Source: Medicago truncatula
Taxonomy: Eukaryota > Streptophyta > Magnoliopsida > Fabales > Fabaceae
Direction: 5' to 3'
Assembly (NCBI RefSeq): GCF_003473485.1
Contig: NC_053048.1
Location: 52,511,755 to 52,575,754 of the forward strand
DNA length: 64,000 nucleotides
This document shows positions 14,800 through 52,698 of the stretch, one piece after another. Every line of letters begins with the position of its first letter. The first letter of the stretch is position 1. A program made the translations under genes and the position numbers. Under the pieces are notes generated by a model, which made no database searches, was not told the origin of the DNA, and saw nothing but the letters and a program-made list of their open reading frames with translations.

Positions 14800-15718
14800 T
14801 ATTCTATCATTTTACGTTTTGGAAGAAGATTTTGCATCCTTGAGCAGGAAGATCTACTAGAGGCATTTTTTGGAGTTGTTGTTTTACGCTCAGGTGTAGG
14901 CCGTTTGCGCCCAGTTCTATAAAAATGTAGTTTCAGCACAATTTGAGAGGGAAGTGTGAACAAACTAGGGTTAATCAATTCTTAGGAGATCAAAGGTTAA
15001 GAATTGTGTACTTTTAAGGGCATAATCTAAACACCCTAGTGAGTAAAATCATTTAGTATCTTGATAAAGGGAAGAGATTAAGCAAAATGGTACAAATTAG
15101 TGTTTGTTCTTAGAGAGTTTGTTGAATGTAAATTTCTTGTAACCCTCTTATCTCTTTGATAGTGGATTGAAGAGATCTCTCTTTTTAAGACGTAGGTTAA
15201 ATTTAAGTCGAATTAGGTGAACAAATATCATTTTGTTTTTTCTTTTCCTTTATCTTATTGTTTGTGTTTTGTTTAATCACTTTGGTCTAATTGCTGCTAA
15301 TTTATTTTCACATATAAAAATGTTGATGCTGAATTCACAACACAAGTTACGGTCATTCAAACTCTTCTTTCTATCCGGTTTTAGTACATGATATTTTTCC
15401 TTGTTGAAGTAATATAGTATAAGCTAACAATGTAAGACATATTGTGTTGCATTGATTTCGTAATTTAATTTACTTCACATAAAATAGAAATTAAATATAT
15501 GCTTTGGTTCACCTACACATTACAAATATTATACCAAAGTTGGTGGGCCTCATTGCAAATACTAATATATATTGCTGAGCCACAAACAACTGCCATATGG
15601 AACAATTCCTTAGACAAATGAACGCAAGTACCATATAGCTGTTACATAATAAAGAACTGAAATAGAAGAATGCACAATAATAGAAGTGATTCATATCATA
15701 ACTCATATGTGCTCAGAA
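14797..15718. other. Intergenic
   Basis: No gene is supported. Bases 15530-15718 are the diverged 3' flank of the second expansin copy. Confidence 0.5.
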
Positions 15719-16729
15719 TCAGAACTGAACGTTACTTTTGTAAGACTGGCCAAATCTCCAGTTGGAAGGTGCAACATTAATAGCTGTACGAGTCTTCCCA
15801 TTTTTGAGTTGAATTCTAAATGATAAGCTTTGACCATTGAGATAGCTTAGGCTTTGCCAATTAGCACCCCAATTCATTGACATTGGTTCCCATTTATTCT
15901 TTTTTGATCCTTTTATCCAAACTTTTGAAATCTCTCCACCTCCCCCTACGTTACTTATAAGAACCAACTCAAAATAGTCTCTCCCATTTATAGTAAATCT
16001 TATGTTTCCACTTCTTTTGCACCCAACTCTGCATAAATACAACAAAACTTTGCATCAAAAACATATTTAAAGATTTAATTGACATGCAACGGAGTGTAAT
16101 CACTATAAATATTTGATTGTTTGTGAAAGTGTCAGTTCAGTGATAAGAATTTGACTTTATAGTTTTAAGGGAAGAAATTTAAAACATACCTCCTATACAA
16201 AATGGGAACAATTCCAGCTCTGTATTTGGCAATAGTCTGAAAGGCAGGTTGAGACATATCAAAGTGAGGTCTAGGGGATTACACCAACCACCATTGTCAT
16301 TAGGGAGTGCAAAGTTTGGTGGACAAAAATTTGTGGCAGTAATAGTGATGGAAGTGCCTCTGAGACACCATTGAGGAACTTGCCTTGCATCACAAACTAT
16401 CTGATAGCAACCACCACATGACTTCCCATCATTAAACAAAGCAGTACTCAATGCAGCTGATTTTATACCATATCCATCTGTGTACAGATTTCCATAACCA
16501 CATGCACCACCTACAAGTTAATCAAAATTAAGTTATATACTTAACTATTTGATTATAACACTTGAATAAAGTTAATCAAAAGAAGAAGCAATTTACCCAT
16601 TGTTCCTGAGGCATCACTTCCACCATAGAAAGTTGCATGAGCTGACTGCCAAACAGCAGATTCTACTCTGAGTTCTGTAGTGACCATATTCATTAACAAT
16701 ATAAGAACACATATAATTAATTTTTCCAT
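15719..16729 (-). pseudogene. Alpha-expansin copy with a 1-bp frameshift
   Basis: This is a second copy of the expansin at 9927-10938, with the same exon borders (16597-16729, 16190-16510, 15719-16028) and near-complete identity in exons, introns and promoter. A run of five G's at 10482-10486 in the intact copy is only four here (16274-16277). The reading frame shifts after ...GGWCNP, so the HFD motif and the rest of the barrel domain are lost and an early stop follows near 16179. The binding domain at 15719-16028 remains otherwise open. It could be a genuine recent pseudogene or a sequencing error in a homopolymer. The near-perfect identity elsewhere is consistent with either. Confidence 0.85.
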
Positions 16730-19145
16730 TCTCTTAATTTCTCTTTCTCTCTAGTTCTCTGAAAAATCAAATAGGGAATTGCTCTAATTTTTTTTTGTAA
16801 ATATGACAGACTCTCTTGAGAATTTATAGTACAGTTAGGGGGTTTTAGCCCATAGAAATAACTAACTGAATTCAATAAATTATTGGGAAAATAAGTGTTG
16901 ACCAACAATTTATTCTCATATTGTAAATAAAATAGAATTGTACCATGAATATGCAAGGTCGGTCATGATTGAAATATGAATTTCTCTTTTTACAAGATAA
17001 TGTTAACTTGTGCCCTTAAGACACATGTTAAGCACTAATTTCATTCCATTAATGGTAAGAATTTATTGTAAAAGTTAACATTTCCTTTTTTTTTTAAAAT
17101 ATAATTGTTATTTTTTTAGGAAATTGTTATAAGTATAAAGTATTCGCCATCTTTTAACTTGAATTAATCTCTCTAAGAAAACATATTGAATACATAAGAT
17201 AAAATTTTCTCTTTTAATATTATTTTTTTCATTCACAAGAATTTAAATAATGAACTGTTTACCACTTGTTTAAAGTGTCTGATTCTGTCGTCTTCTTGTT
17301 TTTTTTTTTTAAGAAGTTTTTGTTCTCTCAACACGCAAAGGTTGCACCAACCACATGTTGGTAATTAGATTTACACTTTTATAAATGAGACTCTAAAATA
17401 ATAAAATATATATGATGAAAAAAATAATAACTAAAAATACCTTAATACTCATTTGAACGTCCGTAGGATTCGTGGTACGTTAGTGGTGCTATCAGTACAA
17501 CATGTATTATAGAATACATATTCATTCATGATTGATAAATTGTTTAAATTATATGCTATTTGAATGATAGGCTATCAAATTAAACGAACCGATAGAATGT
17601 TTACTCCGTATGAAAAGTCAATTCGTACACTCAAGATAAGGACATAAATTATGGGTATAGTCCTGAAATATATATTTGATTTAATGGTAGTAGTAGTAAC
17701 ATGCAAGTACCTAACTTGTCTGATTGACCTAGATTGTTCATCAAAAAATAAGGGAAAATAATATAAGCTCAAACAACACAAGTAGCAGCAGCTATGTATG
17801 TACTTGTCAACTTAAGAATATGCACGTTAGAATGTCAGCTATAAAGATGCTGAATTAAAAGGTTGATGTTATGCCATTTATTGTGGCATGTCTTATGGAA
17901 CTTCACATACATGGCACATGGCTGATGTTATCTCCCGCCATGTACAATAACTGATTCACACATACACTGAGCCTGCCATCATTCCATTCTTGAATAAGAA
18001 CTGCATGTTCTCTATTTACAGAACTGCACATCCTAAATTTTGTACATATCATACAATTATATGGATAGAAACAGTTGAATTAAATATATGTATATGATAT
18101 AAAATATTTTATCCTGATGCCTTGATGGATAAGTGATACCTTAAAACTCATAAGAGAATTAGGAAATTCAAAGATCGGTGGTATTTTGGACATTGCAAAA
18201 TATGAGCAGTGGTCGGAGTTCGAACCAAAGACACCCCCACTTATATCATAAGTAGTCGATAAGTTACTTGGAAAAAAAAAAAAAAAAGTAACTGGATGGA
18301 TCATCTCAGAACATCTCCCCTTAATCTAATGATTCCAAATATTTACCATTTTTCTCAACCCTTTAAACCTTTCAATATTCAAAAAGGTTTATGAATGTTG
18401 GTTACGGGCTCTTCTACAAAAAGGGGAATTTTTTAAATTTTCAAGCAACTGGACACTGCAAACAATACAGCTCTCAAAAAATCAAGTTCAACATGGGAAA
18501 AGTAGCATATAGATCAAAAGAATCATTTCTTAAGAGATTATTCTCATTAAGGATGAAGTAGTTTACTTGTTTTTATGCAGGAGTGAAGAATATGCAGTTG
18601 ATATATTCACCAAACACATCAAATTGCATTCGTTTATGAAGTTAAGACAATCCTTTGGCATTTGTATTTCTCTAGTACTCTAGTAAAAGATGTATTTTTT
18701 CTGCCTATTTTTTTCTCATGTTGTTTTGTAACAGTAACTTCGGAAAAATGTAACATAACCAACACTCTACATATGTAAACCATAGTGATACATGTATGAA
18801 TGGTTATATTTTCTTATTTGAAATGTAACATTCAATTAGACAAATAATGTCAACAAATTATTGGCCATTTTGGCTTATAATAACAACGATGAAAATAAAG
18901 CTTTAACAGAATTTTATTGCCGGGACAATGTTGTAGCCCTCTCTGTTGAACGAGCCAACAAAAAAAATTCAGACAAACCAATGTATCCTTTATTGATATC
19001 CCTGATTGAAGATTCAAAATCTGATACTTGATCCCTTATTTCAGGTAACAGTTTGAGCAAAAGTTTGAAGCTGGTATATATCCCTCCATCTGTGTCTTCT
19101 TTGCTGTGTTTTCACATCTCCTGTTGATAACCGTTCATCATTTTA
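16730..19145. other. Intergenic with duplicated flank and retroelement scrap
   Basis: A TATAAA box at 16823-16828 belongs to the broken expansin copy. Up to about 18.0 kb, blocks matching 11.1-11.9 kb continue at lower identity. A box B-like GGAGTTCGAACC near 18207 suggests a SINE fragment. A copia relic is listed separately. No host gene is seen. Confidence 0.5.
18494..18665 (+). pseudogene. Degenerate copia RNase H C-terminus
   Basis: One frame reads ...KDEVVYLF...SEEYAVDIFTKHIKL...MKLRQSFGIC, matching the conserved 'ADIFTKPL...KLR..LG' end of copia polyproteins. In-frame stops lie upstream of it. This is a truncated relic about 170 bp long. Confidence 0.55.
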
Positions 19146-25244: not shown

Positions 25245-28200
25245 CTATTTATCTATTCTTAGATTGTTACATAGATGACTAAGCTCGGGTCTTGCATCCA
25301 TCCATCCAGCAAATTCTGTATCATCGGGAGAGTTGCAGTAGAGATACGATCTGAATGTGATAAGGAAAAAGTACCGCCTGGAGGAAAACAAATATGATTA
25401 CAAAAGCAGATAGTCCTTATGGTGCACACCTAAACGTTTTTATGTGATGACTACCTCGCAAATCCAAAAATATGTGTACTTCAAATTTTCTACTTTTTTT
25501 CAAAGTTTGATCTAAAGTGCAAGATCACCCATTTTAAGGTGGTTGTGATTTAGTAGTTAAATTGAAAAACATAACACATGAAAATCAACCTTACAAAATA
25601 ATAACTTTTTCTAAAATGAATTTTATTATAAATTCACCATTTGATTGAAAGTTCGTCAAATGTAACATTTTTCATACTCCATCAAAATACATTTTATATT
25701 AATGTTCGACTTTCTTTTCAAAATCAATTTCAATAAACAGTGTGGCTTAAAAGTCTGATTATATTAATTCCTGCATGTGTCAACCAACTCCCACACGCTA
25801 CCATATATAAGCACCAGCAGCATATGTGAGGGTGTGATCAATTCTTTTTAGAGGATATATACAGATACTCATCAGTAGGTACCAAGAAAACATTTATGTT
25901 AGCAAGGCAAGTAAATGTTATGTACCTCAAAGCCTTGATACCCATGTCAAAAAGATATGCACGCTCTTCATCATCATCATCAGTAAACTTCTCAAATTCT
26001 CTAATGTAATACAGAATATCATCTCGAATATGTCCTGCGCCTGCACATCTATTAAAAAAAATAGAAAAATTCAGTGCAATCAACAAGCCAATAACTAACA
26101 TCTTAAGCTATATTGCCACATCAAACTTCCCCGGTGAATAAATAGTGTAAAGGCTATTTTATAACCACAAAAGTGATGACATAATATAGTTGCAAAGAAA
26201 AGGTAAATTCAACCGCTGAAAGTACCCCCTTCAAGTCCCCGTCCTTTCCCTTTTTGGGTTGAAGCCTTCCACACAAAAAGGGAAAAAAGACAAGGACAGT
26301 GCCATGTTTCAAACAAAATACATTTTTCATCATAGAGAACATAATTCATCCACTGATGTTGAATGCATTTTCATACAGGTAATACAATATGGATGGTAAA
26401 GCTTCTAATAAATTTATTTTTATACCTTTCAATGACAATGTCAACATCTGCTTTGCTTTGGGGACCATGTACGAGGACTCTTGTAAGGTTCAAAATGTCC
26501 CGATAGTCGCCCATCCTAAGTGCTGTTTCATTAGAAGCTCGAGAAAGTGAATTATCTTCAGTCACTGCATATGTATCAGGACCAAATGATGGCTGCAGTA
26601 TTTTGGATGCAAAGTTTGCTTCTGCGCCAAGTCTAATACAGATTATGGCCATTGCATATGCGACTCCACCAAAACCTGTGTGCGATACAAAGAGGTAACT
26701 CCCTGCAGAGCTACAATAAAGCAATAATTTATAAGTACATTGTAATATCTAAATGAAGAGTAACTTAAGATTAACATATTGAGTTTTCAGTTTCTAGATG
26801 GTATGCACAGATATGTGGGGATCATATTCAAAACAACACCACTACAAACCATGACAAGAATCCAATGGCTACAATTTGGAGACAGCAAAGCAGCCAAATT
26901 ATCAGCAATCATAAGCTGTTAACAATTCTATGATATGATTGATAATAATTCTATGATTCTATTTACATACTGTCTAAAATGGTACAACCAGTGACGCAAC
27001 AAAAATGTTGGCAAACTTTAGAAGACCCATATACTACCAAGTAAGGAGACTTACTCATCTTGACAATACTGTATTGCATCGACATCAGAGGCTAAGGCAT
27101 CTCTCTCTCTTGTTAAGGGTATCCTCCGATAGACAATATCATATCCATCATCTTTTAGAAGAGAATAAACTTCTGCTGGTGTCTTCACATCATCTGCCAG
27201 AATGTTTTCCCAGTATCCAACCACAGTAGACTGATTTGTTGAGGGATCATATTCTTCACGGTGTAGTAGCATTCGCCCACCAGACTGTCTAATCTCAGCC
27301 AGTGTGTCTTCTTTCAGCCGTGCTTCCATGTGTTCAACCTGAATTATAGTTACCATGAGTTGTGCAACACAATACTTACGTAATATGTTCCAATAGACAA
27401 ACTATTGTACAAGATGGCTCACCACAGGACCGGTGATTCCGACGTGTTTGAGTGTATCAACAGGTTTGTTTAACTCCCTGTGGACAAAGGGAACACAGTT
27501 GATATAAACAACTGCTTCTTCTCTTACATCGGTCAATATAACTTTCCGAGCAGTGAACCCAGGTTTAGATTTAGCATCCAGATAGTTTAGCATCTCCTTG
27601 GCCCCAGAGATGGTTGGAGTTGCCATGCAACATACAGGGTATCCATCAACCTGAAAAAATGACACTCTCACAGTCATCATACCACACTACATTATATATC
27701 AATTGACAATAACATGAGAACTGATAATGCAAAATGCTGTAAGCAAATCCAGTTTATATTTTATCTTTTTTATTGTTTGATGGATCTCAAAGTTACAAGT
27801 TAATAAGTAATTGTAAATCTATATATTTGTCGACGCACGCAATTGTCAAACTATGATACAATTAAATAAGAGGCACTCTTTATAAAATTGAAAGTATGAG
27901 AATCATATAATACAAACCATAGCATGTTATCTTCATTTCAAATATTGAATGAGTGGAAGCAATATCGACTAAAGTAAATTATCAACTAATGTAAAACGGT
28001 GCAATGTACTTGTAAAACTACAAGATAACAAACTAAACAGATGTGCAATCTAGTTCCACACCAGACAGCATTTTTTCGAAATAAACTTACACCATCGGAC
28101 ATATTAAAGATGCTAATTCTACGTATATTTGGATCACTGACGTGTAGCCTTACCTTCTGGCATCACAGATGATGATATTTAGTTTCTTTAGCAATACTTT

Positions 28201-31200
28201 CAAACACAAACATACCTTGTAAACATGAGGTGCACCATGTATTTGTATATTATTGGAAGTTCTCTGTCCAGGAAAGAAATACATTTTAAGTATGGAGCCC
28301 TTCCCCAAAACAGAACCGTTTCTGGCATTGACAGTAGACTCCATCACTGCATCTCCATGCTGAGACTCTTGTGATTCTCTCAATTCCTCCTACAATTTAA
28401 ACTGACATTATCTAAGCAATCCTTATTTGAATTTTGAAAATAATCATTTGATTAGAAAACACTTACAGGGACAGTGAAAAACCTCCCTGGTCTTGATCTG
28501 ATGCTCCATTTCATAGCCTGTACCTCTGGCCTCTGATGCAACCAAACCTTAAATGTCATTCTGGAATTCCCTTGTCCACAAAACCCATCGAATGCTTCGC
28601 TTCCAAGATACGCTGCAAAAGCAATTAGACGGAAGTACCGCTCCAAGTACTCAGCACCACGATCTAAAGCCACCCTCCTTACCCTTGGCTCGACATGCTG
28701 TTGATTGAATACTTTTCTATATTGTAGGACAGCTTGACGAATGTTTTGAAGTGCAGAACATCTATCAATAACAGCATCTAAGGCCTCTCGGCATTCGGCA
28801 CCATTATCAAATAATGTGGTTATCTTCCATAACAAGAGAATGTCATTTATACCAAAAACACGGTTTTGTTTCTCGTCTATCCTTATTTGTGAAATATTGG
28901 AGGTCAGTGCAGTGACACGGCCTAAAGCTTCATCTCCACTTGAAGAACCGCCATTTGATTCTTCTTGGGTTATATCATCACTCAATATTTTAATTGGCCT
29001 ACCAAAATCCACGCGAAGTTTTACAAGGCAGGCTATCACTGTACCAGTAGTAGTCCTGCCCCTACCCATCTGTGATATCAAAGAGATATTAGCAGCTAGA
29101 AATGAAAAGGACAAAAAGACAAGAACCAATGATGAACATATAATGAACGCATTCATAACTGATAAAGCATAAGAGATAAAAGAATAAGAAATGACCTGAC
29201 AATTGAAAACAAAAGCAGTGTCCTTTGCAGCAGAAGCAATATTATTTGCCAAAATGTCAAAGTCAGAACGCTCGGGAGCTTTTCCATCAGTGATGGGTAC
29301 ACGTGCATACTTAATGGGAAACCCTTCAGCTTCCAAGCTTTTGAAAACTTCAAGTGGTGTTTGAATCAAATCAGAGGTAACATGCTCCCAAGCATCAAAT
29401 ATATGACCATCATCTGTTTCATGAATAACCATTATGGCACTGCTATATTGTTTAGCTTCCCTTAAAATGTCTTCTTTTAATCGAGCTTCCATTTTCTCCA
29501 CTCTTTCACAGTCAATACCCTGAAAGAACAAATTACAGCTTCCAATTCACCAATAATAAAAGGAAAGAATGCCAAATTAATATGAAATTTAAAGCAGCAT
29601 TAATGACATCTTAATTTCAGCCTATTAGACAATTAAGCATTAGTTGATCATGAATATATTGATAAAATACCGAGCTGCACAACTCATAGTTAGAGGTTTG
29701 ACAATATTCAGCAAGCAAGTCGATTATGAGTTTGTGTCATTTCATGTATTAGTTATCTATACCAATGTATAAAGGGAGTCTACTCTTTTTTTTGGGATGA
29801 ACTTTTTCTTCCATTTTTACACTTCATTTAAACTATTTCATCATTTTTATAAAATCATTTAAATTATCAATTAAAAAAATTAGTTAAACTCCATTAGAAT
29901 AGGAACAATCCATAACAAAAGGATTAACAACCCACAATAATAGAACGATATTAGACACTAAAAAAACTGTATTTTGATCTTATATAAGGGAATATTATAT
30001 TTTGGTATAATATTTTTTCTTCCAATATTACCCTTCACTTGATTATTTTTTACCATTTTATCGTTCATTGTATATAAAAGCGTCAAGACGGGCATGGCGC
30101 TAGTACCTCACAAAGTAGATACCCTTTTGTAACATTTGATGATCCCACTACTATAATGACATAACAGGTTTTGTGGAATGAACGAAAATAACTCCGTAAA
30201 CAAAGAAAATACCCTTCCTTTCTCACACGTCTTAACTAGACATACCGCTTCCCAATTAGAATGCTAATTTTCCATGAGATTATTCTTTGGTTGGGAGGGA
30301 GTCTGGCTTGGACCACATTGCTAAGAATTTTTTTTTGGCCAATGGTTCCTGCTAACTAGTACAACTTAAATTGCAATATAGATTATAGACATCTTACTGA
30401 GAGGCTACAAGAAAAGTTGAGTTACAAACGAAGAGCCAGTTTTTCTGACATCTACTTAGCCATCCCTCTTTCATAACTTCAAATTTATTGAAAAGATATG
30501 TCAAATGTAATGCTTACCGTGTACTCCAACATGTTCTTGTATGGTCGTTCAACTTCACGAAGAACAAATGGCTTCCCATTGATGTAAATAACAGGCTCTT
30601 CTCTCATATTATGCCAAAGTATTGGGCATCCACCATTAGTACTGCAAATCCTATGAATGACAGACCGAATACCATCAATGGTTGGATTTGCAACACCAAA
30701 AACTGGAAATCCAGGAACTTTTCGAAAATTAGGAGCACCATCCACTCTCTCCGGCAAACTCGGATTTTGGCATCCAGGACAGTGATCACTTTTAAGAACA
30801 GTTTGACTTCCAAGAACTTCACCTTTTCTCAAGGCAGCAACATTACCCATCTCAGATGGCCGGCCATCAGTTGATTCAGCTATCTTTGTTAAAGATGGTT
30901 TCAAACTTGAATATCCAAGTGCACCCATTGGATCTCTCCTGAGTAACCTGCAGTGCCGATTGTTGTGAGTCATGCCAAATAACGGTAGACATTAAAATCA
31001 GAAACCCAATTGGTAAATATTGTGCAACAATGTGATGAAAAAATTGACATGAGAAAGTATATCACGGGAGAATGTTAAATAAACAGAGATATATGGAAGC
31101 TTCTGGAGTCACACGCAAGGTACATTGTTGGACAATCTTTACCGATTGGGTTTGAAAATTTATTCCATTTTATAAAAGAATCTGGATGCCTTGAAGAATC

Positions 31201-38045: not shown

Positions 38046-39835
38046 TACAAAGTCAACTTCTTTACAGGCGTTATATAAGACCACAATTATATGGTTTAAA
38101 CCAGAACTCTAAATCATACATTCTCCACGACTTCTGTCAAAAAAAATACATTCTCCATGACTGTTTTTTATTTATATCTACTTCACACGGCCCTCAGGTT
38201 ATAATATTCCATACAGACAATATGGACCATAAACCATAGCAAATCATGCTGTTCGATTAAAGTTTTTTTTTATCAATGCAATGCTTATTAAATACTATAA
38301 TCACTACTGCCTTTTCAGAAAGAAAGAAAAAAATACTATAATCACTAATCTATATGTGTCTCACTTAAGTTTTTTTTTTTTTGGGTAGATCACTTGTTTT
38401 AAATAAAATATTGGTGATAGATATTTATCTTCCGTTTGATTTTATTAGTTTATTGTACAACCTAACGAAAGCCTTTGTTTAAGTAGAAGCTGAATTTCTT
38501 CAACAAAAGAAAAATAGAAGTTAAATTCTTCCCAATTATTATTTATTTATTTATAAATTTGCAGGTTAAAATTTAAAATGCGAAACACTTGAGAAACTTC
38601 AAAATGTATATTCTACATTCATATTGATCAAATGCTACTAGATAAATTCACAATGTCATACTCGAAAGAAAAAAAAAATCACAAAGTCAACTTTTTAGAG
38701 GTATATAAGACAAAAAATATAGTATGGTTCAAACCATAACTCTAAATCAAATATATCATTTCTTCTTTTAAATAGATTGATTTTCTTGATGCGAGTATAA
38801 TAATTAAACAAAGAAAATGTTTTTTTTTTAAGAATAAACAGGGAAAAGGTTAACAAGTGTCTCCGAGACACTCTAAACTTAAATGATAAATTTCTATGAA
38901 AATTTGTGTTTTTAATATTTTAGAAATTGTAATATTTGATTTTTTAAAAAGATAATTTTGTAGTTTAGAACCCTTAAAAAGCGTTCTAAAAACTCCTTAG
39001 TCAAAATGTTCATGTGAAAGACTATAGAAGTAACTTAATTAATGCCAAAAGTTTAAAAAGAACGTGAAAGCCATGGTGGGAGAATAATTATTTGTACTTT
39101 TTTCACAATAAAGAAGGTTGATTCCCTTTTGTTTAGTAGAAAAGAATGTTGACTAGCTAATGCATGCTTCACAATCACAATTCACACAAAATAATGCCTT
39201 TTTAGCTGGCTTTAGTTTACTTGCAATTAATTAACGTTGTGACAACCGTTTTGTGTTGTTTTGGTGAAACCAACGAGCTATAATATTTGTGCTGTTTTCT
39301 CCAACAATTCCTTCCTGTTTTAATTAGAATATTGTTCCAGCATTTTCATTCTTTAATTGAGAATGCAACGTTTTACAAAGAGATTAAAAAGAAAAGCACA
39401 AAAAAATTAGGGTTTTGTAGCAACAAAATAAAATTTGCTAGTGTTGTTGACAAAATTCAAGGAAAAGTTATATCTTGTTCAAACAAATGAAGGGAAGATA
39501 TATCTTTTTTACGACATACGGGACAAGTTGTCTACTCCAAATTCCAATCAAATGAGCGAAGCTGTGCAATTTTATTATTATTATTTTAATAAAAAAGGGC
39601 TGTAGCCCAAAAAAGAAACTACATAGCAATAATCCTCGGATGATTCATCCCTACTATATCAGCAAAAAGTAAATGATTTAGTTAAGTAAGAGGTTGCTTG
39701 TAGATAATAAAATTAGGATCACTATCAATCATTTATAATCTGTACTATTACACTGTGTAATCTTATGCACCTGAAAGACATGGCGAGGTGTTTCACCCTA
39801 GACTTCGTCATTAAGGTAAGAGTACTATATTTGCA
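38046..39835. other. Intergenic, nothing coding recognised
   Basis: Contains a diverged direct repeat: 38050-38130 resembles 38690-38760 (ACAAAGTCAACTT, TATATAAGAC, CTCTAAATCA). Otherwise AT-rich. The 3' flank of the first cathepsin B gene begins at about 39835. Confidence 0.45.
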
Positions 39836-42800
39836 TTAGAATGAAACATCAGCATCAACATCCATGTCAGTCACCTCTCTCACAATATTTTTGGTAGAAG
39901 GCAAACCAGCAGTAACAGCATTTTCAATCCCACATTCGTTTGTCCCTCTCTTAATCTTGAAGTAACCATCCTGCAGTTTAGTAGATTAACTTAGTTCATT
40001 AGCTAAGACATATCTTAAGTAACAACTATTCAAGCTGAAAGAATAATTCAAGAAACATACATCCCCCCAATTCGTATTCCACTGATTTGCAAGAAGCTGA
40101 AACAGTGAAAATTAACACAGTCAGCGCACATAAAATTCTGAATAGAAGCATGTGTTTGAAAGTGTTGTTCTCTAATATCAGGAACAAGTTTATAAATTGT
40201 CAACACACCCAATAGTCCTCCCCTTCATGACTTGTTCCCCACCCAACCAACTTTACTGCATGACCGCCTAGTGCAAAACCTGTGATGTGTTTGTAAACTC
40301 CTGATTTGTAATGAGCAAAATCCTGTCAAGGGATCAAAAGAGTCAAGGTTATGCAAAAGGATAGGAGAATGATCCACAAACATTAACAGAAAGGTCGCCG
40401 TCTAGTTTCTAACTTGAAAATTGTATCTTCTATCCTATGTCAATCTGCGTCTTCAAAGCACAAGAGATGACAACTGGCCCCGAGTACCGAGAACCAAGGG
40501 AAAAACATTAAAAGATAAAGAAATGGAATAAAAGGAATGTAATATAACACAAATCTAATATGTGTGAAGGAGATATATGGCATATCCGATAACATGGCAC
40601 AGAAGGAAGGAAGGAGCAACATTAAGACAATGGGAGAACTGAGGCTGTAAAGTTTCACAAACCCAAACAATAGTAACAGGGAGAAGCAACAAGGGTGGAA
40701 ACTTAGCAAGTGTCTCTTACAATATCAAAGAAATGAAACAAAACGAAAGGTCACATATCAACTATTGCAGCTTGTCATTTCTTAATTAGTAGCAACTAGC
40801 CTATGGGTATACCGACTCCAGGTTTCTGTTTTGATTGAGTTTCAAATTTCATTGAGAACACTTCATATTATTCCAGTCTATCGGTGCATACCAATGCAAG
40901 TTCATGTCGAAGTTGGACTGAAATTCATAATCTGGTTATAGCCTAATTGAACATCTAGATTTTCAAGCAGTTTTTAGTATTATATGACAAAACTGCTGCT
41001 TTAAAATCAGATGTGTTACATTTATACAATTCCATCTAATTTGTAACATATGCAATTCAGATAAAAAAAAAATAGAAGGTACCAAAAAAATCAAATATTT
41101 ATTAGCCTAAATACAAACTAAACAATATGTGAAATTTAATGTAATCTTTGAAGTAAAGACCTGGCTATATTGGAGGATTTTCTATTTTATTCTTTTTATC
41201 CCCCCTCCCTTTTCTCTCTCATATTTTTCTTACCAGAGGTTGAATTTTACGTTTTCTGGGGTAACACTGACCAAACGCAATGCATTCTCCTAAGTCCAAA
41301 TCCAATGTAATATCTGAGACTTTGTTATTGATTCAACTTTTTTTGTGACTAAAATACTGAAATTTTCATGTATCGACTCTCGCTCTTCCCTTTCTTTTAT
41401 CACTGACTGCCATCAAGCTTGTAGAAATATCTAGTTTTGCTATATTTAGCTGTTGGGATTTAGAAGATTCACATTGCTACACTAAATGGACTTTCAGCTT
41501 CATAATTCATAGCTCCTTTATTAAAAATTAGATTTCGCCTTCGGTCTTTGTTCTTGCAAATGCTTTCCCAACTCATCCAATCATATAGGATAAGTTAAGT
41601 CCTCTCAATAATAAAAGTGAACTTTAAATAATTTTGAGAATGAGACACAAATTTCCAAAGCAATAGCTAAGCTGGAATGACGGTTAGACTAATTTCAATG
41701 TGTGTAAAAGCTTACCAAACCGCTCATTTTTCAACTTTTACCAATACTTCATATAAGGTGTTTTACTCTTCATGGAAAATCTTGAAATACTAATTCTCAT
41801 ATTCAAAATTCCAATGTAAGCTCAATCCACAGTCTAATTTTATAATCCAACATAATATGCCAAAAGAATATATATATATAGATCTTTATCCTAAAAAGGA
41901 TTATGGTTAAGCAAAATGAAAAGTCTCAAATGATCAAACTCGCTCCTTGATCAGAGCCTCCCACAATCTATTATCATTGTCTTCAAAATTTGATTGCATA
42001 AAATTTAATTGCAAAAAGACGGGCAAAATCATCCATTTACCTCATAAACAGTGAATGCAACTTCAACTGGCCCGTTCTTATAAACTTCTGCCATGATATC
42101 TTGGGGATCAGAGTTGACCGTATATGCTTTGACACTATAGTGCTTTGAAGTCTCCCAAAGCTGGTTCCCATTTACACACTTTTTAACACACTTTGGAGTT
42201 CGGTATGTTGGCTCACAGCCAGGATGAGAACAGCCAATTTGATCAAAGTATGGGTCACACTAGCACATGTAATAAAAAATACAGATCAAAAGAAAGAGCC
42301 CGGGATTTTATTCTCTAAGCAAGAATGAAAATTTGTTACCTCTTCAGTGACAACACCATGGTGAGCTAAGTATATCCATGCAGAAAAGGGAGTCCCCCCA
42401 GCACAGCCAGCCCCACAAAGAAGGCCACAGCATGCAAGAATGTCATTAACAGAGAGGGATACATTCTGCATTTGAACACACTGAATGTTAGTGTTAGAAC
42501 AACAACTTAGGTTCAAAAGAAAACAAATAGGAAAAACACAAATAGAGAACACAATTTTGCCTATGTCTCCAACTGTAGAGTGGTTGTAGTGGTGCCTTTC
42601 TAGTATTCAAGATTAGGGTTACAGAGAACACACAAACCTCGAGTGACCTACCCACTTATCAGTAAATTATGAGTCATGCCAACAATTAGTTCCTCTTTCA
42701 AGAGGTAAGCTCTTCAAGTAGCTTTGTGCATAGAGATAAAGAGGTTTACAAAGCTATGGTGAATATTCACAATCACACACAATAAATAAGAAAAAAAATC

Positions 42801-44544
42801 CTAATTGCTTCAGCAAGAAGTTTATTTACCATGTCAAAATGAATGCAAAACCGATCTGATAATGATTCAACAGCACCAAATGCCCAACAAGAACCACAGT
42901 GACCCTGAATCATCATCAGCACAAGGATCAGATAAGAACTTCATGGTCAAAGAACCATAGTGAATCTTAACATAAAAAAAAAAATTAAAAAAAAGTAGCT
43001 AAAAACAGGAAAAAGACAATTACTTGATCTTTAGTGAGAAAATCGGTTCAGCAATCCATGTTGTTTCCAATAACAAAAAAGAAGAGTTAGCACTCTGCAA
43101 CACCTATTGCAAAATGCAATATGTAATCAAAGTAAAATAATAATGAGGAGCAAATGAATGACCTAGAATTCTCCCAATGGTGCTACATTGCGACCAAGCT
43201 GTCCTTGCATCGAAGTCCTTTGGCAATTTTAATGATTTTGGATGAGTTACAACAGGTGCACTACTCAGTTCACTTCGGGGTGTTTGTTTGACTCCAAGAA
43301 GCCGCTTAAATTGTCCAACCTGTGCATTGATCAAACACAATGTCTTGCATACTCAAAACATGCATATGTGGACACTAAATTTAATGACTCAGATGCCACA
43401 CGTGTATTTTATTAATTGGTTAAATTGCACTTTTGGTCCCCCTAACTTATAGGGATTGGCAATTTTGGCCCTCAAATATACTCAAATGCCACGTTTGTAT
43501 TTTATTAATTGGCTAAATTGCACTTTTGGACCCCTAACTTACACAGATCGGCAACTTTGGCCCTCAAACTTACACAAACCTTTGATTGTGGTCCCCAACA
43601 CCGGCGTTGAGCCGGTCAAAATCAGTGGGGGCGTCACTTTTGCAAAAGGGCCTAATGTTAAGGGACCAAAAGAGCAATTTAGGCAAAAATAAAATACAAC
43701 TGAAAACTGCTACAAAAAATGTATAGGGGAATAGTCATTTTGGTCCAAAAAATTCAAAATAGTGATTGTGCACTTTATTGATCAAAATAGTCTCCAACGT
43801 TAAAATAGTCCCCTCTATGCTGACAAAAACTCTCTTCTCATAGGGACTTATATAACAATAAGTGAGTATATTGACAAATGATATGACAGTGTTTAACGGA
43901 CTATTTTGATTAACAAAATGCAAAATCAATAACTATCTTGAGATTTTTGATACATTTAGGGACTATTGTGTCAACTCGTTATACATTTAGGGACCAAAAT
44001 GATTATTATCTAAAAAAATGTATTTAAAACTTAATAAAAAAATTAAAATGGTATAATTGGAGAAAGTGAAAGTGTAACCGTAAAATTTGAGAAACGAGGA
44101 TTAATTGTAGCTTCCCATCCTGCCTCTGGGTTTTCGTTAATCTGTCTAGCAATAGACTCCTGCGAGAATAATGATCGTAACATATCGTTCACAAGATTCA
44201 TAGATAGATAGATAGAATAAAGTCAAGTCAACCATATACATATATTATTGAAACTTGAAACATTAATCATTAGCGAAATAATTGATTACCTGAAGGATAT
44301 GAGAATTAAGCTTGACTTCACTAAGCTCATATGTCTTCGCCTCACCGAACTGTCAACAATGTTTCTTGTAAATTCAAAACGTCTTTAACAGTCTAACTAA
44401 CAACACAAGAGTTCAAAATAGAAAGCCAAAAAGAAGAAGAAAAATCAAAAGTAGAAATGAAACTAAAGCAGAAAAAGAAACCCGTAGATAAGGCGCGAAG
44501 AAAACTAAAAATAAGGTAGCCAGGGACAGAATTGTTGGAGTCAT
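39836..44544 (-). CDS. CATHB: Cathepsin B-like cysteine protease, copy A
   Basis: Papain-family (C1A) protease of the secretory/vacuolar system, linked in plants to senescence and cell death. Eleven minus-strand exons: 44482-44544, 44290-44349, 44079-44159, 43163-43319, 43024-43028, 42830-42904, 42340-42465, 42041-42259, 40209-40322, 40061-40096 and 39836-39970. They give 356 residues, normal for plant cathepsin B. A signal peptide (about 1-21) and propeptide are followed by the mature enzyme ([10 protein letters not shown]). Catalytic residues are Cys128 (GHCGSCWAF), His283 (GGHAV) and Asn304 (NQWNTNWG). The 5-nt exon 5 (ATCAA) supplies Asp-Gln122, the oxyanion Gln. Cathepsin B-type [13 protein letters not shown] and a short occluding loop (CSHPGCEP) are present. 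Intron 1 has a weak donor, GTTTCT. The gene is intact and tandem with copy B. Confidence 0.9.
43024..43028 (-). other. 5-nt micro-exon of cathepsin B copy A
   Basis: Minus-strand ATCAA between acceptor ...ACTAAAG and donor GTAATT. It completes GAT-CAA (Asp-Gln) with the last G of exon 4. Inferred from frame and family conservation. Confidence 0.8.
43393..43700. mobile_element. MITE with duplicated left end in intron 3 of copy A
   Basis: A 93-bp unit is tandemly repeated (about 43394-43486 and 43487-43579; phrases TTTTATTAATTGG and AAATTGCACTTTTGG). The right end is the inverse of the left (GGGACCAAAAGAGCAATTTA). Non-coding. Confidence 0.6.
43728..44005. mobile_element. Second MITE in intron 3 of copy A
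   Basis: The left end GAATAGTCATTTTGGTCC and the right end GGGACCAAAATGATTATTAT are inverted relatives bracketing about 275 bp of non-coding sequence. Confidence 0.5.
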
Positions 44545-46716
44545 TTTTATTAGATAGAATGAAAAGGAATCTAAAACTGAGAGCTTATATTTCTTGTTGA
44601 CAATTTTTTCAAATAAAAATAATTTGATTTTGAGTGCACTCACATAAAAAATTATTATTTTAGAAATATAAATTATTATATTCATTCTTCTTTTACATTT
44701 TTTTATCTGATATGTAGGTTGAAATTATTTTTATTTAAAGTTGTTATCAAACAAGTATTTGACATAATGAAAAGCTGGTTGCATAGCGTTTTTTTTGTTG
44801 GTTGACAATCTTATATTGTAGTCAAATGAACTTATCATTTGTTGATGTTGCATTCGAGTTAAGGGGTCTCTTTTGTGTGGTGATCGTGTGTAGAATAAAG
44901 TCATTTAAGTGAAGGCATCTTTTTATATAGAGGTTGTTCTAAAATAAGTTTCATATAAAGGATGATCTTGCACATGTTAAAGAAACTTCTTTGTTTTACA
45001 TTGTGTTGGTGGATGCAGTGTACTTGAGAAGTACACTTATTCGCAGAGTATTCAATTTTTGGATTACAAGATGTTAGTATTGTCATGGCAAACACATCTT
45101 ATATTTTGTGTTGTTTTTATTAATATTTTTTTTCTTCAGTTTATTAACTAATTAATTAATCAATTAATAAACTTTGTTTTTCATAAGATGGAGTAATTAT
45201 CTTGCGATACCCAACTTCAATTAGTGGTGCAGCCCATAACTCTATAAATAAAATAAGAAAAATGATTATTGTTACAAGATAAGTTTGATAAAAAAATACA
45301 AATCATTCGTATCAGAATCAAAGTATAAATAATAACCATTCATTCTTTTATCACCCCTTAAAAAAAAAAATCACTCTTTTATCTACAATTAGTTAGAGTC
45401 TGATTTTTTTATCTCCCTTTGAGAGAGAGAAAAAAATCTCTCTTCTTTTTGAAGGACAAAAAATCAATCTTCTATATTAGTTAGAGTCTGATTGGTCAAA
45501 TTTTCTGTTTTTCTATGTGATTTTCTCTTTCTTGTTTAAATCTTTAGTATTACTCTACAAATAGCAAATTAGCAATGCTCATAGGTAATCAAGATTGCTA
45601 GAAAATTGAAACAAAGAAAACAACGTGTGATTTATCAAAACAAAAAGTAGTATTTAAAAAAGTGATTAATCCACATTCTGTTTTTGAGGAGATGGAGTTC
45701 GAACCACAAACCTTCCATATATTATGCATTGTCCTAATTCATATCCACATACGATAAAACATGATGGGTCTCACATTGTTTTTAAAAAGATTTATTTTTA
45801 TTGCTTACCTATACAATCAACCAATTATAATTTGCCACGACTTTTTTTCATTGATTTTAACAAAAATGACAAACTCTTGGATTGATTTGTTAATGGGGCA
45901 TGTCACAGGCGAATAATTGAGAATGCGTGTGTATATGGACGAACAGTGTGCCTTCTGGCATTTGCTTTGTGTCTAAAAGTCATGAGATTGGCTAATGAAG
46001 AAGATTTGGTGCACAAAAAATGTGCATAAGAGGACAAGATCAACACATCCTACTAAATTAGACTTCATTTATTCAAATTCCAAACATAGATTGATTTGTA
46101 GATATTTTATTATTTTTACTACATATTGATAAGAATATTCTTTCTTTTTTCATCTTTCTTCAAATTATCCCACATCATGCTTTATGGGTTTAATGTCTGC
46201 TGCTCGATCCACACGTTAACCTTAAACTCTAGTCAGATTTTATGTTTATAGTATGTGGAACTTAATTTCTCCAATATTGTTCGTCGGAAAAATATAATTT
46301 CTATGGTAAAAACATAAATATTTCTGTTTTTTATCCCCCTAAAAAAATATAATTTTTTTTACCAAGTATAAATATTTTTTTAGTAACAAAAAACACAAAT
46401 AATGTTTTACAAACATTCATTGTAAACAATTTAATAATTAATAATTCCATGCGTTTCGAACTAGAAATAGAGTCTGCAAAGATACGAGAAAGAAATAAAT
46501 AAATATTAACAAACTAGTATAAGTATGACAGTTAGCCTCTTATTTCGTGTGACAGAACTCATTGCATAAACCACAAAAGCTTACTGTCTTCCAACATCAT
46601 AGTCGTAATCTAGATCTTCCCTTAAAAGAGACATACAGATAACAGACAACATTTGGTGCAGATTTTTCAATACCAACACAAATCTTTCTGTTAAGGTAAC
46701 ATTACTACATTCACAT
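44545..46716. other. Promoter of copy A and 3' flank of copy B
   Basis: The promoter of copy A resembles that of copy B just above the ATG, but the strong TATTTATA/TATAAATA of copy B is changed here (TATTTCTT). A SINE-like GGAGTTCGAACCAC lies near 45692. No additional gene is seen. Confidence 0.5.
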
Positions 46717-49700
46717 TCAGAATGAAACACCAGCATCAACATCCATGTCAGTCACCTCTCTTACAATATTTTTGGTAGAAGGTAAACCCGCGGTAACATC
46801 ATCTTCAATTCCACATTCGTTTGTCCCTCTCTTAATCTTGAAGTAGCCATCCTGCAGTTTAGTAAATTAGATTAGTTCATTATCTCAGACATATCTTAAG
46901 TAATACTAACAACTATTCAAAATGAAGAATAATTCAAGAAACATACATCTCCCCAATTTGTATTCCACTGATTTGCAAGAAGCTGAAACAGTGAAAATTA
47001 CACAATCAGTATACATAAAATTCTGAGTAGTAGCATGTATTTGCAAGTTTTATCGTCTAAAATCAGGAACAAGTTTATATATTGTCAACATACCCAATAG
47101 TCCTCCCCTTCATCACTTGTTCCCCACCCAATCAACTTTACTGCATGACCGCCTAGTGCAGAACCAGTGATATGTTTGTAAACTCCTGATTTGTAGTGAG
47201 CGAAATCCTGTCAAGAGATCAAAGGAGTCGGTATTCTTAAGATGTGAGAATGGTACCAAATTTTGTTAGTTGAAAGTTGCAGTCGTAACACACATCACTT
47301 ATATTCAACACAAAAGAGACAAAGCAACCAAAAATCCACCCTCATCACAGAGTCCCCGTTCTTGAATAGGACTAGTGAGACACAGTCACCGACTAACAAA
47401 AATCCTCCTCGCACTTGCCTATGATTTATAAAAGACTACTAAATGTCCGTGTTTTAATAAAGTAAATCCAATGACTCATAAGTTTGCTCAATTTGCTTAA
47501 AAGTTGAGGGAATGATCCAAGGAACACACAATTAGACCGATCTTATACAATAAGTTCTGTTTCATTTTAGGACTGGTATTTGTGTGCCCAATAGTTCTGA
47601 TTCATAATACTGTCTAGTTTCTAACTCAAAAGTTATGTCTACTATTCTAAGTCAAATTACACCCTAAAAGCACAAAAGATGGAAATTTACCCCTTTTTTT
47701 CAAAATGAAACGAGCAATGAAAACCAAAGGAAAAAATAGAAAAGATTAAAGTAATGAAAAGAAATGAGAGGAACGTAATAAATATCTCACAAATCTAATA
47801 TGTGCGAAGGAAAAATATTGCATAATATATGATAAAATGGCACTGAATGAAAGAACAACATTAAGACAACAGGAGAATTGAGGTTGTTATGTGCCACAAA
47901 CCCAAACAGAAGTAAAAGTGAGAAGCAACAAGGGTGAAACTTAGCAAGTGTCACTTACATAACTAGCTTAGAAGTACACGAGTCCAGGTTTCACTTTCAG
48001 TTGAATTTCAAATTTCATCGAGAACACTTCATATTAGTTTAGTCTACCCACCCCCTCCCTTTTCTCTCTCAGATTTCTCCTACTAGTGGTTGGCTTTTAT
48101 GTTTCAAGCTTATAGTTCGGTAGACTTTTTTTTCTGGGGTTACATGATTGGTGACCAAACAAGATGCATTCTCCCAACCCATTAATGTTTAGCTGTGACT
48201 TTGTAATTGACTCAACTTTTCTTGTCGCTAAAATACTGAATTTTTTATGCATTGCTTCTCTCTCCCCCTTTCTCTTATCGCTGACTACCATCAAGCTTGT
48301 AGAAATTCCTATTTTTGCTAGATTTAGCTGCTATGTAGACCCAAAGTATGACTTTATCATTGATGCGACTGTGACTACTCACATTACTATGCTACCCTAA
48401 AATGAATTTTCAGCTTCACAATTCAGAGCTCCTTTTATTACAAATTAGACATCAGTCCTTGTTCTTGCAAATGCTACCCCAACAACACAATCACATAGGA
48501 TAATCTTAAAAATGAACTTTAAATAATTCTGAGAATGAGACACAAATTTCCAAGGCAATAGCCTAGGCTATGATGATTGGACTAATTTCAATGTGATTTC
48601 AGCTTACCAAACCAGTCACTTTTCAACTTTTATCAATACTTGATATAAGGTGTTTTACTCATACTTCATGAAAAATCATGAAAGACTAATACTCATCTTC
48701 AAAATTCCAATGTAAGGTCAATCCTCAATCTAATTTACAATCCAACATAATCTGCCAAAAGCATATATCTAGATCTTTATCATGAAAAGATTTATAGTTG
48801 AGCAAAATGAAAAGCATCGAATGATCAAACTCAACCCTTGAACAGAGGCTCCAATATTTACTCTCACTGTCTTCAAAATATGACTATAAGGAGGGGGGAT
48901 GGATTTACAAAATTTGACTGCAGAAAATTTAATTGCGGATGGGCAAAAACTTTCATTTACCTCAAAAACAGTGAATGCAACTTCAACAGGCCCATTCTTA
49001 TAAACTTCTGCCATTATATCTTGGGGATCAGACTTGACCCTATATGCTTTGACACTATAGTGCTTTGACCTCTTCCAAATCTGGTTTCCCTTTACACACT
49101 TCCTAACGCACTTGGGAGTTTGATATGCTGGCTCACAACCAGGGTGAGAACATCCAATTTGATCAAAGTATGGGTCACACTGTCACATGTAAAACAAAAA
49201 ATACAGATCATAAGAGCTTGGGATTTTAGCCGCTTAAGCAATGAAGGGAATGAAAAAATTTACCTCTTCAGTGACAACACCATGGTGAGCTAAGTACCGC
49301 CATGCATAAATGGGAGTCCCCCCATCACAGCCAGCCCCACAAAGAAATCCACAGCATGCAAGAAGGTCGTTAACAGAGAGGGATATATTCTGCAATTGAA
49401 CATAGAATGTTTTAAAACAACAACCACGGTTCAAAAGAGAACAGATATGGACAATGCAAACAGAGAATACACATGATTTGATCACAGATTCGGCCAATTT
49501 TGCCTACACCTCCGACTGCAGCGTGGCTGCATTGCCTTTCTATTAATGAAGCTTAATGTTACAAATTGCAACTTGTGTTTAAATGTTCTTGCAAGCTAGA
49601 GCGACCTGCCCACTTATCAGGAAACTATGAGGCATACCCGTAGTTCCTCTTTCAAGAGGCAAGGCCCTCAAGTAGGTGTGTGAACAGAGATAAAGAGGTT

Positions 49701-51707
49701 ACAAAGTCATGGTGAATATTCACGAAATACACACAATAAGTAAGAAAAAGTCTATTAATTGCTTCAGCAAGAAGTTCACTTACCATGTCAAAATGAATGC
49801 AAAAACGATCTTGTAATGATTCAACAGCACCAAATGCCCAACAAGAACCACAGTGACCCTGAATCATCATCAACATGAGGATCAGATTAGAACTTAGTGG
49901 CCAAAGAAACACAGTAAACCGCAAACATAAAAAAAAATAGCTGAAATGAGGAAATAAAGGAATTACCTGATCTTTGGTGAGGAAATCGGTTCAGCAATGC
50001 ATGTCAACAACCAAAAAAAGAGTCAGCATCTATTGCAAAATGCATTATTATTTAATTATATTAAAAAAAATAGGGAGAAGGAGCAAGTAAATGACCTAAA
50101 ATTTTTCCAATAGTGCTACACTGTGACCAAGCTGTCCTTGCATCAAATTCCTTTGGCAATTTTAATGATTTTGGATGAGTTACAACAGGTGTACTTAACA
50201 GTTCTTTTTTAGGTGCTTGTTTGACTCCAAGAAGGCGCTTAAATTGTCCAACCTGTGCATCAAAAAGAATGCCTTTCAATTTTCATACTCAAAAGACATA
50301 CATATGATGCAACTAACTATGTTAAAGTGAGATACACTTTAAAAGATAATTATTAAAAAGAAGATGCTAATGAGTGCAACCGGACACAAGTTAAGAAAAC
50401 TAATATAAAAATTTTGTGTCGGAAAGTGTTGTATTTAACATTTTTAGAAGTTTAAAAATTGTTATTTTCAATACAAAATTCTATTTGTAATTTCTCTTAC
50501 TAGTGCCCTTAGGGCACTTTTTTTGTTGAAGAATAGTGCCCTTAACGCACTTGTTAGTAGAACTCTTAACAAAATTAAAGAAAATGCCCTGGGGCAGTAG
50601 TTAAGGAAATAAGTATAGTAAGAATTTCTTTCTCTCAAAAAAATAAATATAGTAAGAATTTCTTGGAACTTGCGTAATCAGATATTGAAAAGTGTAGAAA
50701 ATATTGTCTTCAATAGAAAACTTACATTTTTTATTTCCTTGACTCGTTAGTATTAGTGCCCTCGGGTACTAGTTAGCATTACCCTATAATTAATTAAGAC
50801 ACAAATATCTTGCTTTTGGCCCAAAATCATTAAAATAGTAGAAAGAAAGAAAGAAAAAAATTGGTCTCTATTATTCTGTCTTAGTCTATCTAATTTTTGT
50901 TTGTGAGAAAATTCATACTCAATCTAAAATAAAATATAAGAAAAAAAAATATCATATGTGTTGGGTCTAATAAAAAAAAATTCCTAATCATGTTAGGTCT
51001 AAATTTTAGATAATTAGTTTGTTTGACTTATAAAATCATTTTTGGTCATATTTGGTGCAAGAGTACTTATATAGTTGATATGCAAGGATAAAAATCAATA
51101 TAGTCTACCTGTCACATAAACTGGAACCAACATAAACAAATCGTAGGTGAATTAAAATCAAATTCTTGTATACATCAGACTTTAAAGAAAGAAAAAATGG
51201 CGAGACTTTTTTTTCTTCTAAAACAAGAAAGAAATAATGAAACTAAAATGATAGAAAAAATGAAAAGGTTGTATATTTGGAGAGAGTGTGTGTAACCGTA
51301 AAGTTGGAGAAACGAGGATTAATAGCAGCCTCCCATCCTGCCTCTGGGTTTTCGTTAATCTGTTTTGCAATTGACTCCTGCGAGAAAATGATGATCATAA
51401 CGTTGTTAACTAACTAACAATCACATATTCAAATTCAAATTCAAACTTCAAACAATATTATATTGATCATGGTTACCTGAAGAATATGAGAATTAAGCTT
51501 GAGTCCATTAAGCTTCTCATCTGTTTCCGCATCACCGATCTGTCAACAACAACAACAACGTTTCTTGTAATTTCAAAACTTGCTCTAACAGCATAAAAAA
51601 AGGACCGAACAAACATGATCAACGACAAGACAACATACCGATAGATAAGAAACAGAGAAAGCTAAAAATAAGGTGACCAGGGGCAGAATTGTTGGAGCCA
51701 TTTTCAT
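46717..51707 (-). CDS. CATHB: Cathepsin B-like cysteine protease, copy B
   Basis: Tandem paralogue of copy A. Eleven minus-strand exons: 51639-51707, 51477-51539, 51297-51377, 50096-50252, 49967-49971, 49784-49858, 49264-49389, 48961-49179, 47094-47207, 46947-46982 and 46717-46851, giving 359 residues. A signal peptide ([17 protein letters not shown]...) is followed by a propeptide and then the mature protease. Catalytic residues are Cys131 in GHCGSCWAF, His286 in LGGHAV and Asn307 in NQWNTNWG. The micro-exon ATCAG gives Asp124-Gln125. The occluding-loop region [15 protein letters not shown] is shorter than in animal cathepsin B and keeps one His. A TATAAATA box (51754-51761, minus) lies 47 bp before the ATG. 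Intron 8 is related to that of copy A along much of its length, while introns 3 differ in size and insertions. No lesion is seen. Confidence 0.92.
49967..49971 (-). other. 5-nt micro-exon of cathepsin B copy B
   Basis: Minus-strand ATCAG between acceptor ...CACCAAAG and donor GTAATT, flanked by introns of 124 and 108 nt. It encodes, with the preceding G, Asp-Gln of the invariant [11 protein letters not shown] motif. Confidence 0.82.
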
Positions 51708-51753
51708 CGTTGCTGCTGGATAGAATGAAATGGAATCTTAGACTAGGAGCTTA

Positions 51754-51761
51754 TATTTATA
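51754..51761 (-). promoter_or_regulatory. TATA box of cathepsin B copy B
   Basis: TATAAATA on the minus strand, 47 bp upstream of the start codon, implying a very short leader. Confidence 0.6.
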
Positions 51762-52698
51762 GTATATTAATCAATTAATTAATAATTATCCTTTTTTTGG
51801 AGTAATTATCTTGGTACACGCAACTATACGACTACGACTACGACTACGAAACTAAAGATGATTTATCAAACCAAAAAGAATCAACATATGGGTCTCACTT
51901 GGTTTTAAAAATATTATACAAAAAACCAATTACAATTTTCCATGACATTTTTCGTTTTTTTTTTTTAAATTAAATACGAATTTTAATTAATTAATTTATT
52001 AAAGGGACAGGCTGATAATTAAGCAATGCGTATGTATATGGACGAAAAGTGTGTCTTGTGGCATTCGCTTTGTGGCACACCCAACAAAATTACAACTTCA
52101 TTGATTTCAAATTCCAAAAATAGATCGGTTTGTAGATATTTTTCCTTTTTTATTTTGATATATCTTCCTTGAAAACATCATGCATCATCCTATCCAAGTC
52201 TCCAATCAAGTGGCCGCAGTATGGGCTTAATGCCTGCAGCTCGATCAACACACTACCCAATGATTTTTTTTTCTTCTTAGTATAAAATAAGATAACATGC
52301 TGTCAAAATTAATTTGAGTTTTTCATCAAAACATTTAGTCTTTTATGTGTATTGATATTGAAGACTTGATTAGCTATGCATTGGGAAAGAGTTTGCAATT
52401 TTGTTTGTCCAAAAATTATATGCAGGAGGGTTTGTAATTTTCTCGGTTTACAAGTTGACTAATGTTAAATTAGTTTGGATCATATTTTTAAAAGTTAATT
52501 TAAAGGATGACGAAGGTCAACCAAATATATATATATCCAAAAGTACAATAAGTTTGACAATATGAGACTCTGAAACAATTCCAATACCAACCCCAATGTC
52601 TATCGTGCGTCTTGAGGCCAATTTTCATATTGTTGTCCTTAACTTGACATTGATACCCAATTAAATGAGCTTAGATCTCGATATCAACAACTAGTTCA
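51762..52698. other. Intergenic
   Basis: Upstream region of cathepsin B copy B. Contains a GACTAC run (51830-51849). No gene is supported. Confidence 0.45.

Follow-up and report, generated by a model that had tools for sequence, protein, structure and literature searches.

A survey of 10 plant species reported 2,398 micro-exons of 1-15 nt, about 50% of them multiples of three, together with 45 conserved clusters (PMC8831610; this paper and most others below are cited for selected passages). One of these, Cluster 7 of Yu et al. 2022, has a size of 5 nt and phase 1 and belongs to Peptidase M1 (PMC8831610), and the 5-nt exon of Peptidase M1 is also found in Zygnema, with RNA support (PMC9915684). 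Plant micro-exons have been collected in a database, MEPDB (PMC12409088). A still shorter exon, of 1 nt, is constitutive in Arabidopsis APC11 (PMC4674806). The initial annotation of the locus described here placed 5 nt near the lower limit for spliceosomes, which is an overstatement in view of this constitutive 1-nt exon (PMC4674806) and of the conserved 5-nt, phase-1 plant micro-exons (PMC8831610). Among plant cathepsin B-like genes, poplar PtCP5 has an mRNA sequence of 1071 bp with 11 exons and a protein of 356 aa (PMC8657902), and the active-site Cys of AtCathB3 lies in exon 6 (PMC3991739).

In this study, we analysed a stretch of 64,000 nucleotides of Medicago truncatula DNA (contig NC_053048.1; referred to as the window), which contains two predicted cathepsin B-like genes in tandem, copy A and copy B. 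As judged from the sequence, we found that the segment ATCAG of copy B is very probably a genuine, and probably constitutive, 5-nt coding micro-exon of a plant cathepsin B-like gene, common to both tandem copies.

A tandem gene pair with a predicted 5-nt exon

Both gene models were built by hand from the minus strand (39700-44620 for copy A and 46560-51780 for copy B) and were then verified by script (Table 1). The coding exons of copy B measure 69, 63, 81, 157, 5, 75, 126, 219, 114, 36 and 135 nt, and those of copy A 63, 60, 81, 157, 5, 75, 126, 219, 114, 36 and 135 nt. The CDS of copy B is open throughout (1080 nt including the stop) with GT..AG at all 10 introns; across copies A and B, GT..AG was found at 20 of 20 introns, and both genes are intact. 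Of 356 aligned residues, the two proteins share 308, and their alignment has 3 gapped columns. Their dN and dS were 0.069 and 0.240 by NG86 and 0.066 and 0.254 by YN00, giving dN/dS of 0.26-0.29, and on these estimates both copies are under purifying selection. Intron lengths differ between the copies at all 10 introns.

Table 1. Features of the gene pair, in positions of the window (a slash marks a splice junction)
Feature	Positions	Strand	Details
Copy B, cathepsin B-like gene, ATG to stop	46717..51707	(-)	11 coding exons, 359 aa; hand-built model, script-verified
Exon 4 of copy B	50096..50252	(-)	End AAA ATT TTA G, read as K I L + G
Intron 4 of copy B	49972..50095	(-)	124 nt, GT..AG; 5' site TAG/GTCATT; 3' site CCAAAG/A
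Exon 5 of copy B, predicted micro-exon ATCAG	49967..49971	(-)	5 nt, phase 1; completes codons for Asp124-Gln125
Intron 5 of copy B	49859..49966	(-)	108 nt, GT..AG; 5' site CAG/GTAATT
Exon 6 of copy B	49784..49858	(-)	Start GGT CAC TGT GGT TCT TGT TGG; GHCGSCWAF with catalytic Cys131
Exon 10 of copy B	46947..46982	(-)	36 nt; carries catalytic Asn307
Copy A, tandem paralogue	39836..44544	(-)	11 coding exons, 356 aa; hand-built model, script-verified
Homologous predicted micro-exon ATCAA of copy A	43024..43028	(-)	5 nt; Asp121-Gln122; flanked by AAAG/ and /GTAATT
Exon 10 of copy A	40061-40096	(-)	36 nt; carries catalytic Asn

Copies A and B lie in direct tandem, and they are also alike ahead of their start codons, where BLAST gave matches of 168 and 67 aligned positions. 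Intron 3 is 1044 nt long in copy B and 759 nt in copy A, with an ungapped identity of just 50%. Four pairs of inverted repeats (22-33 nt, 85-88% complementary) are present in this intron of copy A (43320-44078) and might be the remnant of a mobile element; intron 3 of copy B (50253-51296) has four weaker pairs (17-25 nt, 72-84%). Elsewhere in the window, a block is duplicated at 9672-11139 and 15496-16929 (93.4% identical); each of the two has an expansin-like open stretch with a DPBB_1 match, at 10376-10726 in the first and, with a shorter match, at 16182-16517 in the second. Minus-strand pieces at 27054-30991 gave a PTPlike_phytase match in three of the open stretches tested, and we take them to be paladin-like. 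A plus-strand open frame at 3-1487 looks, judged by eye, like the reverse-transcriptase part of a Copia-type retrotransposon.

The minus strand at 49971-49967 reads AAAG/ATCAG/GTAATT (letters read directly), with TCCTCACCAAAG directly before ATCAG and GTAATTCC directly after it. The initial annotation had claimed a 5-nt micro-exon at this place; its coordinates are exact, and the AAAG acceptor and GTAATT donor on its flanks are present. The exon ends given there, KIL plus G for exon 4 and GHCGSCWAF for exon 6, are both read so in the sequence of copy B. Exon 4 leaves one base (G), which is completed to G-AT CAG, Asp-Gln, and exon 6 then continues with GHCGSCWAF; exons 4, 5 and 6 of copy B, when joined, are in frame. 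In the gene models the micro-exon is an internal coding exon within the range of 1-15 nt, with an intron on either side (124 and 108 nt in B, 134 and 119 nt in A).

The size, the phase and both splice sites of the micro-exon are kept between the two copies in spite of their substitutions and differing intron lengths, and the sole exonic change is CAG in B versus CAA in A, both of which encode Gln. The matching exon of copy A, absent from the initial annotation, further backs the micro-exon of copy B, and its retention in the paralogue is the strongest new sequence evidence for the reality of the exon. This sharing of size and phase in homologous genes refers to a comparison of copies A and B only, and no further relatives were found in one scan of viral contigs.

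Both proteins matched Peptidase_C1 (223.7 bits for B and 220 bits for A; curated cut-off 20.7) and Propeptide_C1 (41.3 and 38.5 bits; curated cut-off 32.7). The top matches among solved structures were procathepsin B and cathepsin B chains, the best being 1pbh with an E of 8.3e-87. Copies A and B are thus predicted to encode cathepsin B-like cysteine proteases (C1A). When B was aligned with 1pbh, Gln125, Cys131, His286 and Asn307 were found in the positions of the active-site residues, and the corresponding residues of A are Gln122, Cys128, His283 and Asn304. Two of these four residues sit in exons shorter than 51 nt, namely the 5-nt exon 5 and the 36-nt exon 10. The occluding loop of animal cathepsin B has paired His residues; this region aligns poorly, with one His in B versus HH of 1pbh.

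Gln125 is present only if the micro-exon is included. It lies six residues before Cys131, as Gln122 of copy A does before Cys128. At this site 1pbh is ungapped and reads IRDQGSCGSCWAF; its DQGSCGSCWAF is aligned with the micro-exon region, and DQG and CGSCW are common to both. To call the sequence given in the initial annotation an invariant family motif was therefore an overstatement, as 1pbh has IRDQGSCGSCW and shares only DQG and CGSCW with it. The assignment of the Gln as the oxyanion-hole residue agrees with the alignment to DQG of cathepsin B, the role of this residue being taken from a published description (PMC8004986, in part). The Gln encoded by the micro-exon thus aligns as the predicted counterpart of the oxyanion-hole Gln of cathepsin B.

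Splice paths and splice signals between exons 4 and 6

Skipping of the micro-exon had been predicted to shift the frame, and the computed join of exon 4 to exon 6 bears this out in both copies: a stop is reached inside exon 6, after residue 135 in B and after residue 132 in A. From this stop to the last exon junction downstream, the distance is 535 nt in both copies. By the usual rules, a stop so early in the message leads to nonsense-mediated decay, which exon-skipped transcripts should therefore undergo.

Other ways of joining exons 4 and 6 were enumerated. For a single intron, GT/GC donors in the final 60 nt of exon 4 or anywhere in the intron were paired with AG acceptors at least 30 nt downstream and up to 60 nt into exon 6, and each product was translated to the end of exon 6. 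DQG before HCGSC was obtained with 0 of 121 pairs in B and 0 of 171 in A, so that no alternative donor or acceptor restoring DQ, a possibility raised in the initial annotation, exists among the single-intron pairs. CGSCW was kept in an open frame by 13 of the 121 pairs in B and 6 of the 171 in A, and these joins were rejected, none having DQG before HCGSC; in 10 of the 13 and 3 of the 6, the Q that is read there is no more than the CAG of the exon-6 acceptor. For two introns, the exon-4 donor and the exon-6 acceptor were fixed, each intron was at least 40 nt and the middle segment was shorter than 200 nt. GHCGSCW was in an open frame with 5 of 20 middles in B and 4 of 33 in A. KILDQ or RILDQ stood directly before GHCGSCW in one of the 20 candidates and one of the 33, in each case the 5-nt exon. 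The claim that ATCAG is the sole in-frame source of Asp-Gln therefore holds in this form: within the search space given here, it is the only segment that places DQ directly before GHCGSCW. The other middles with an open frame, 4 of 20 in copy B and 3 of 33 in copy A, were set aside because neither KILDQ nor RILDQ immediately precedes GHCGSCW in them. Among these seven, five either include the micro-exon or begin within its donor; DQ is read in two of those five, of 59 nt (B) and 11 nt (A), and is followed there by inserted residues.

Splice sites were scored with a leave-one-out matrix from the 20 introns of A and B, a crude measure based on 18 training sites for each score and 16 for the scan of competing sites. 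The acceptor of the micro-exon scored low, ranking 17 of 20 in B and 16 of 20 in A. Its donor, that of intron 5, ranked 2 of 20 in B (CAG/GTAATT) and 17 of 20 in A (CAA/GTAATT), and the exon-4 donor TAG/GTCATT, identical in both copies, shares places 12-13 of 20. In neither copy is the best-scoring acceptor of the whole stretch one of those modelled for introns 4 and 5: both are outscored by a different AG, which lies within intron 5 at a distance of 26 nt (B) or 25 nt (A) beyond the micro-exon. The first exonic base of this AG on the minus strand would be 49940 in B (TTTCAG/C) and 42998 in A. An AG only 25-26 nt from a donor is too close to end an intron, given the minimum intron size. This competing AG therefore cannot serve intron 5, and it could vie for the exon-4 donor.

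A CTRAC word begins 55 nt upstream of the micro-exon in B (CTGAC, branch-point-like) and 62 nt upstream in A (CTAAC), and both copies have CTGAA 23 nt upstream. No other intron of either copy is as rich in U as intron 5, whose U fraction is 0.49 in B and 0.53 in A; intron 4, at 0.43 in both copies, is unexceptional in this respect. When the final 30 nt of intron 4 are compared between A and B, 27 of 30 positions agree, a value equalled by intron 10 and exceeded by none of the 10 introns. A private conserved signal at the end of intron 4 was considered and ruled out, since intron 10 ties at 27/30 and intron 5 has 26/30.

Exon definition of a bare 5 nt seems unlikely. We propose instead that intron 5, which has the better-scoring sites in B, may be spliced out first, so that the five bases become attached to exon 6, and that intron 4, with its weaker acceptor AAAG and weaker donor GTCATT, would be removed afterwards. 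The U-rich intron 5 and the upstream branch site of CTRAC type might stand in for exonic enhancers, and transcripts that miss the micro-exon would be expected to go to nonsense-mediated decay. In plants, the downstream introns of micro-exons tend to be spliced before the upstream ones, the upstream intron tends to be detained, and T-rich motifs are enriched in the introns flanking micro-exons (PMC8831610, in part). The proposed order fits the site scores mainly in B, and the weak donor of copy A does not favour it.

Competing explanations

ATCAG and ATCAA might also be chance matches inside one larger intron, in which case both genes would be non-functional or would encode an enzyme without Asp-Gln. 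This explanation was weighed with 20,000 dinucleotide shuffles of the stretch from exon 4 to exon 6 (237 nt in B and 258 nt in A), with the outer 38 nt on each side barred from the match. In its favour, an AG-5 nt-GT word of any content appeared in 15% (B) and 24.5% (A) of shuffles, and the copy A stretch itself has a second such word. The 5-nt size is therefore unremarkable by itself, and the content of the word is decisive. In contrast, the word coding for Asp-Gln, AG-AYCAR-GT, appeared in just 9 of 20,000 shuffles in B and 20 of 20,000 in A. Both copies retain this word with one silent difference, in open CDSs with the dN/dS given above, and the frame is lost without the five bases; these points also argue against chance, which we consider extremely improbable. 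Another way to dispense with a separate micro-exon is retention of intron 5 in copy B, where the 108 nt are divisible by three and open, with no stop until the normal one, so that 36 residues would be inserted in frame before GHCGSCW. Intron 5 of copy A, however, has 119 nt, and its retention gives a stop after residue 134. In B, the insertion would moreover separate the oxyanion Gln from the catalytic Cys, a place at which none of the three aligned cathepsin B chains shown has one, and the GT..AG sites of intron 5 are kept in both copies. Retention can thus be given hardly any credence.

A further possibility, which accepts the exon, is that it acts as a regulated on/off cassette. Variable inclusion would then switch between an active protease with a complete oxyanion hole and an mRNA bound for decay, and the tandem copies would differ in their set-point through the last exonic base, G in B and A in copy A. 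The early stop predicted for skipped forms of both copies, well ahead of the last junction, is in line with such a switch, and so is the difference in donor rank between CAG/GTAATT and CAA/GTAATT. The weak acceptor of the micro-exon and the stronger competitor, which is kept in both copies, would favour some mis-splicing and would fit this reading as well. Unexpected splicing that shifts the frame is reported for AtCathB1 (PMC10920296, citing Porodko 2018). Against a switch, the PSI is above 0.5 for most coding plant micro-exons, for which inclusion is the rule (PMC8831610, in part). On balance, we regard regulated inclusion as unlikely and prefer a micro-exon that is probably constitutive in both copies.

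Comparison with known micro-exons and plant cathepsin B genes

The 9-nt mini-exon of plant invertases reportedly depends on an upstream branch point and a U-rich tract, as Simpson et al. are said to have described in 2000 and 2002. It resembles the exon of copies A and B in being a tiny exon that codes for catalytically important residues of a hydrolase. The two differ in that skipping of 9 nt keeps the frame, whereas skipping of 5 nt does not. The 1-nt exon of APC11 is likewise ultra-short and needed for the frame, and its putative branch point lies 44 nt upstream, compared with 55 and 62 nt for CTGAC and CTAAC here (PMC4674806). It differs in size, and its inclusion was proven experimentally, whereas inclusion of the 5-nt exon is predicted from sequence (PMC4674806).

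Arabidopsis AtCathB1-3 and PtCP5 belong to the same family by name and are likened to the present genes by published exon numbers, not by sequence (PMC10920296, PMC3991739, PMC8657902). PtCP5 and copy A have the same CDS length, exon number and protein length, where the exon count of PtCP5 may include untranslated exons (PMC8657902). The catalytic Cys lies in exon 6 both in AtCathB3 and in the present model, where the published numbering may likewise include untranslated exons (PMC3991739). The passages on AtCathB1-3 and PtCP5 contain no exon sizes and no mention of a micro-exon (PMC10920296, PMC3991739, PMC8657902), and the covered passages of a soybean survey give no exon sizes for cathepsin B (PMC7659060). 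The poplar and Arabidopsis exon numbers fit the micro-exon without proving it, and lend indirect support to an old age of the exon. The word 'cathepsin' is absent from the main texts, without supplements, of PMC8831610, PMC12409088, PMC6600660 and PMC9915684. No micro-exon in plant cathepsin B was found in the open-licence literature searched, which comprised titles, abstract starts and word-searched texts without supplements.

Exons this short are often overlooked in annotation (PMC8831610, in part). An annotation without the micro-exon would have a frameshift or a wrong splice site, and both proteases would therefore be annotated as broken or as lacking the oxyanion-hole Gln. The pair of copies also offers a natural test of how the spliceosome finds five bases, having the same exon and near-identical flanks, with one silent base altering the donor site. 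The known limits of splicing are unchanged by this exon. With the micro-exons of Yu et al. 2022 and MEPDB, such as Cluster 7, it has in common its size of 5 nt, phase 1, an internal coding position with introns on both sides, the conservation of position and phase between homologues, and its necessity for the frame, in so far as these are described in the passages cited (PMC8831610, PMC12409088). The difference from Cluster 7, which belongs to Peptidase M1, is the gene family, which here is cathepsin B-like (C1A). The 5-nt exon of copies A and B is thus a probable new member of the known class of conserved plant micro-exons, in which it may already be catalogued.
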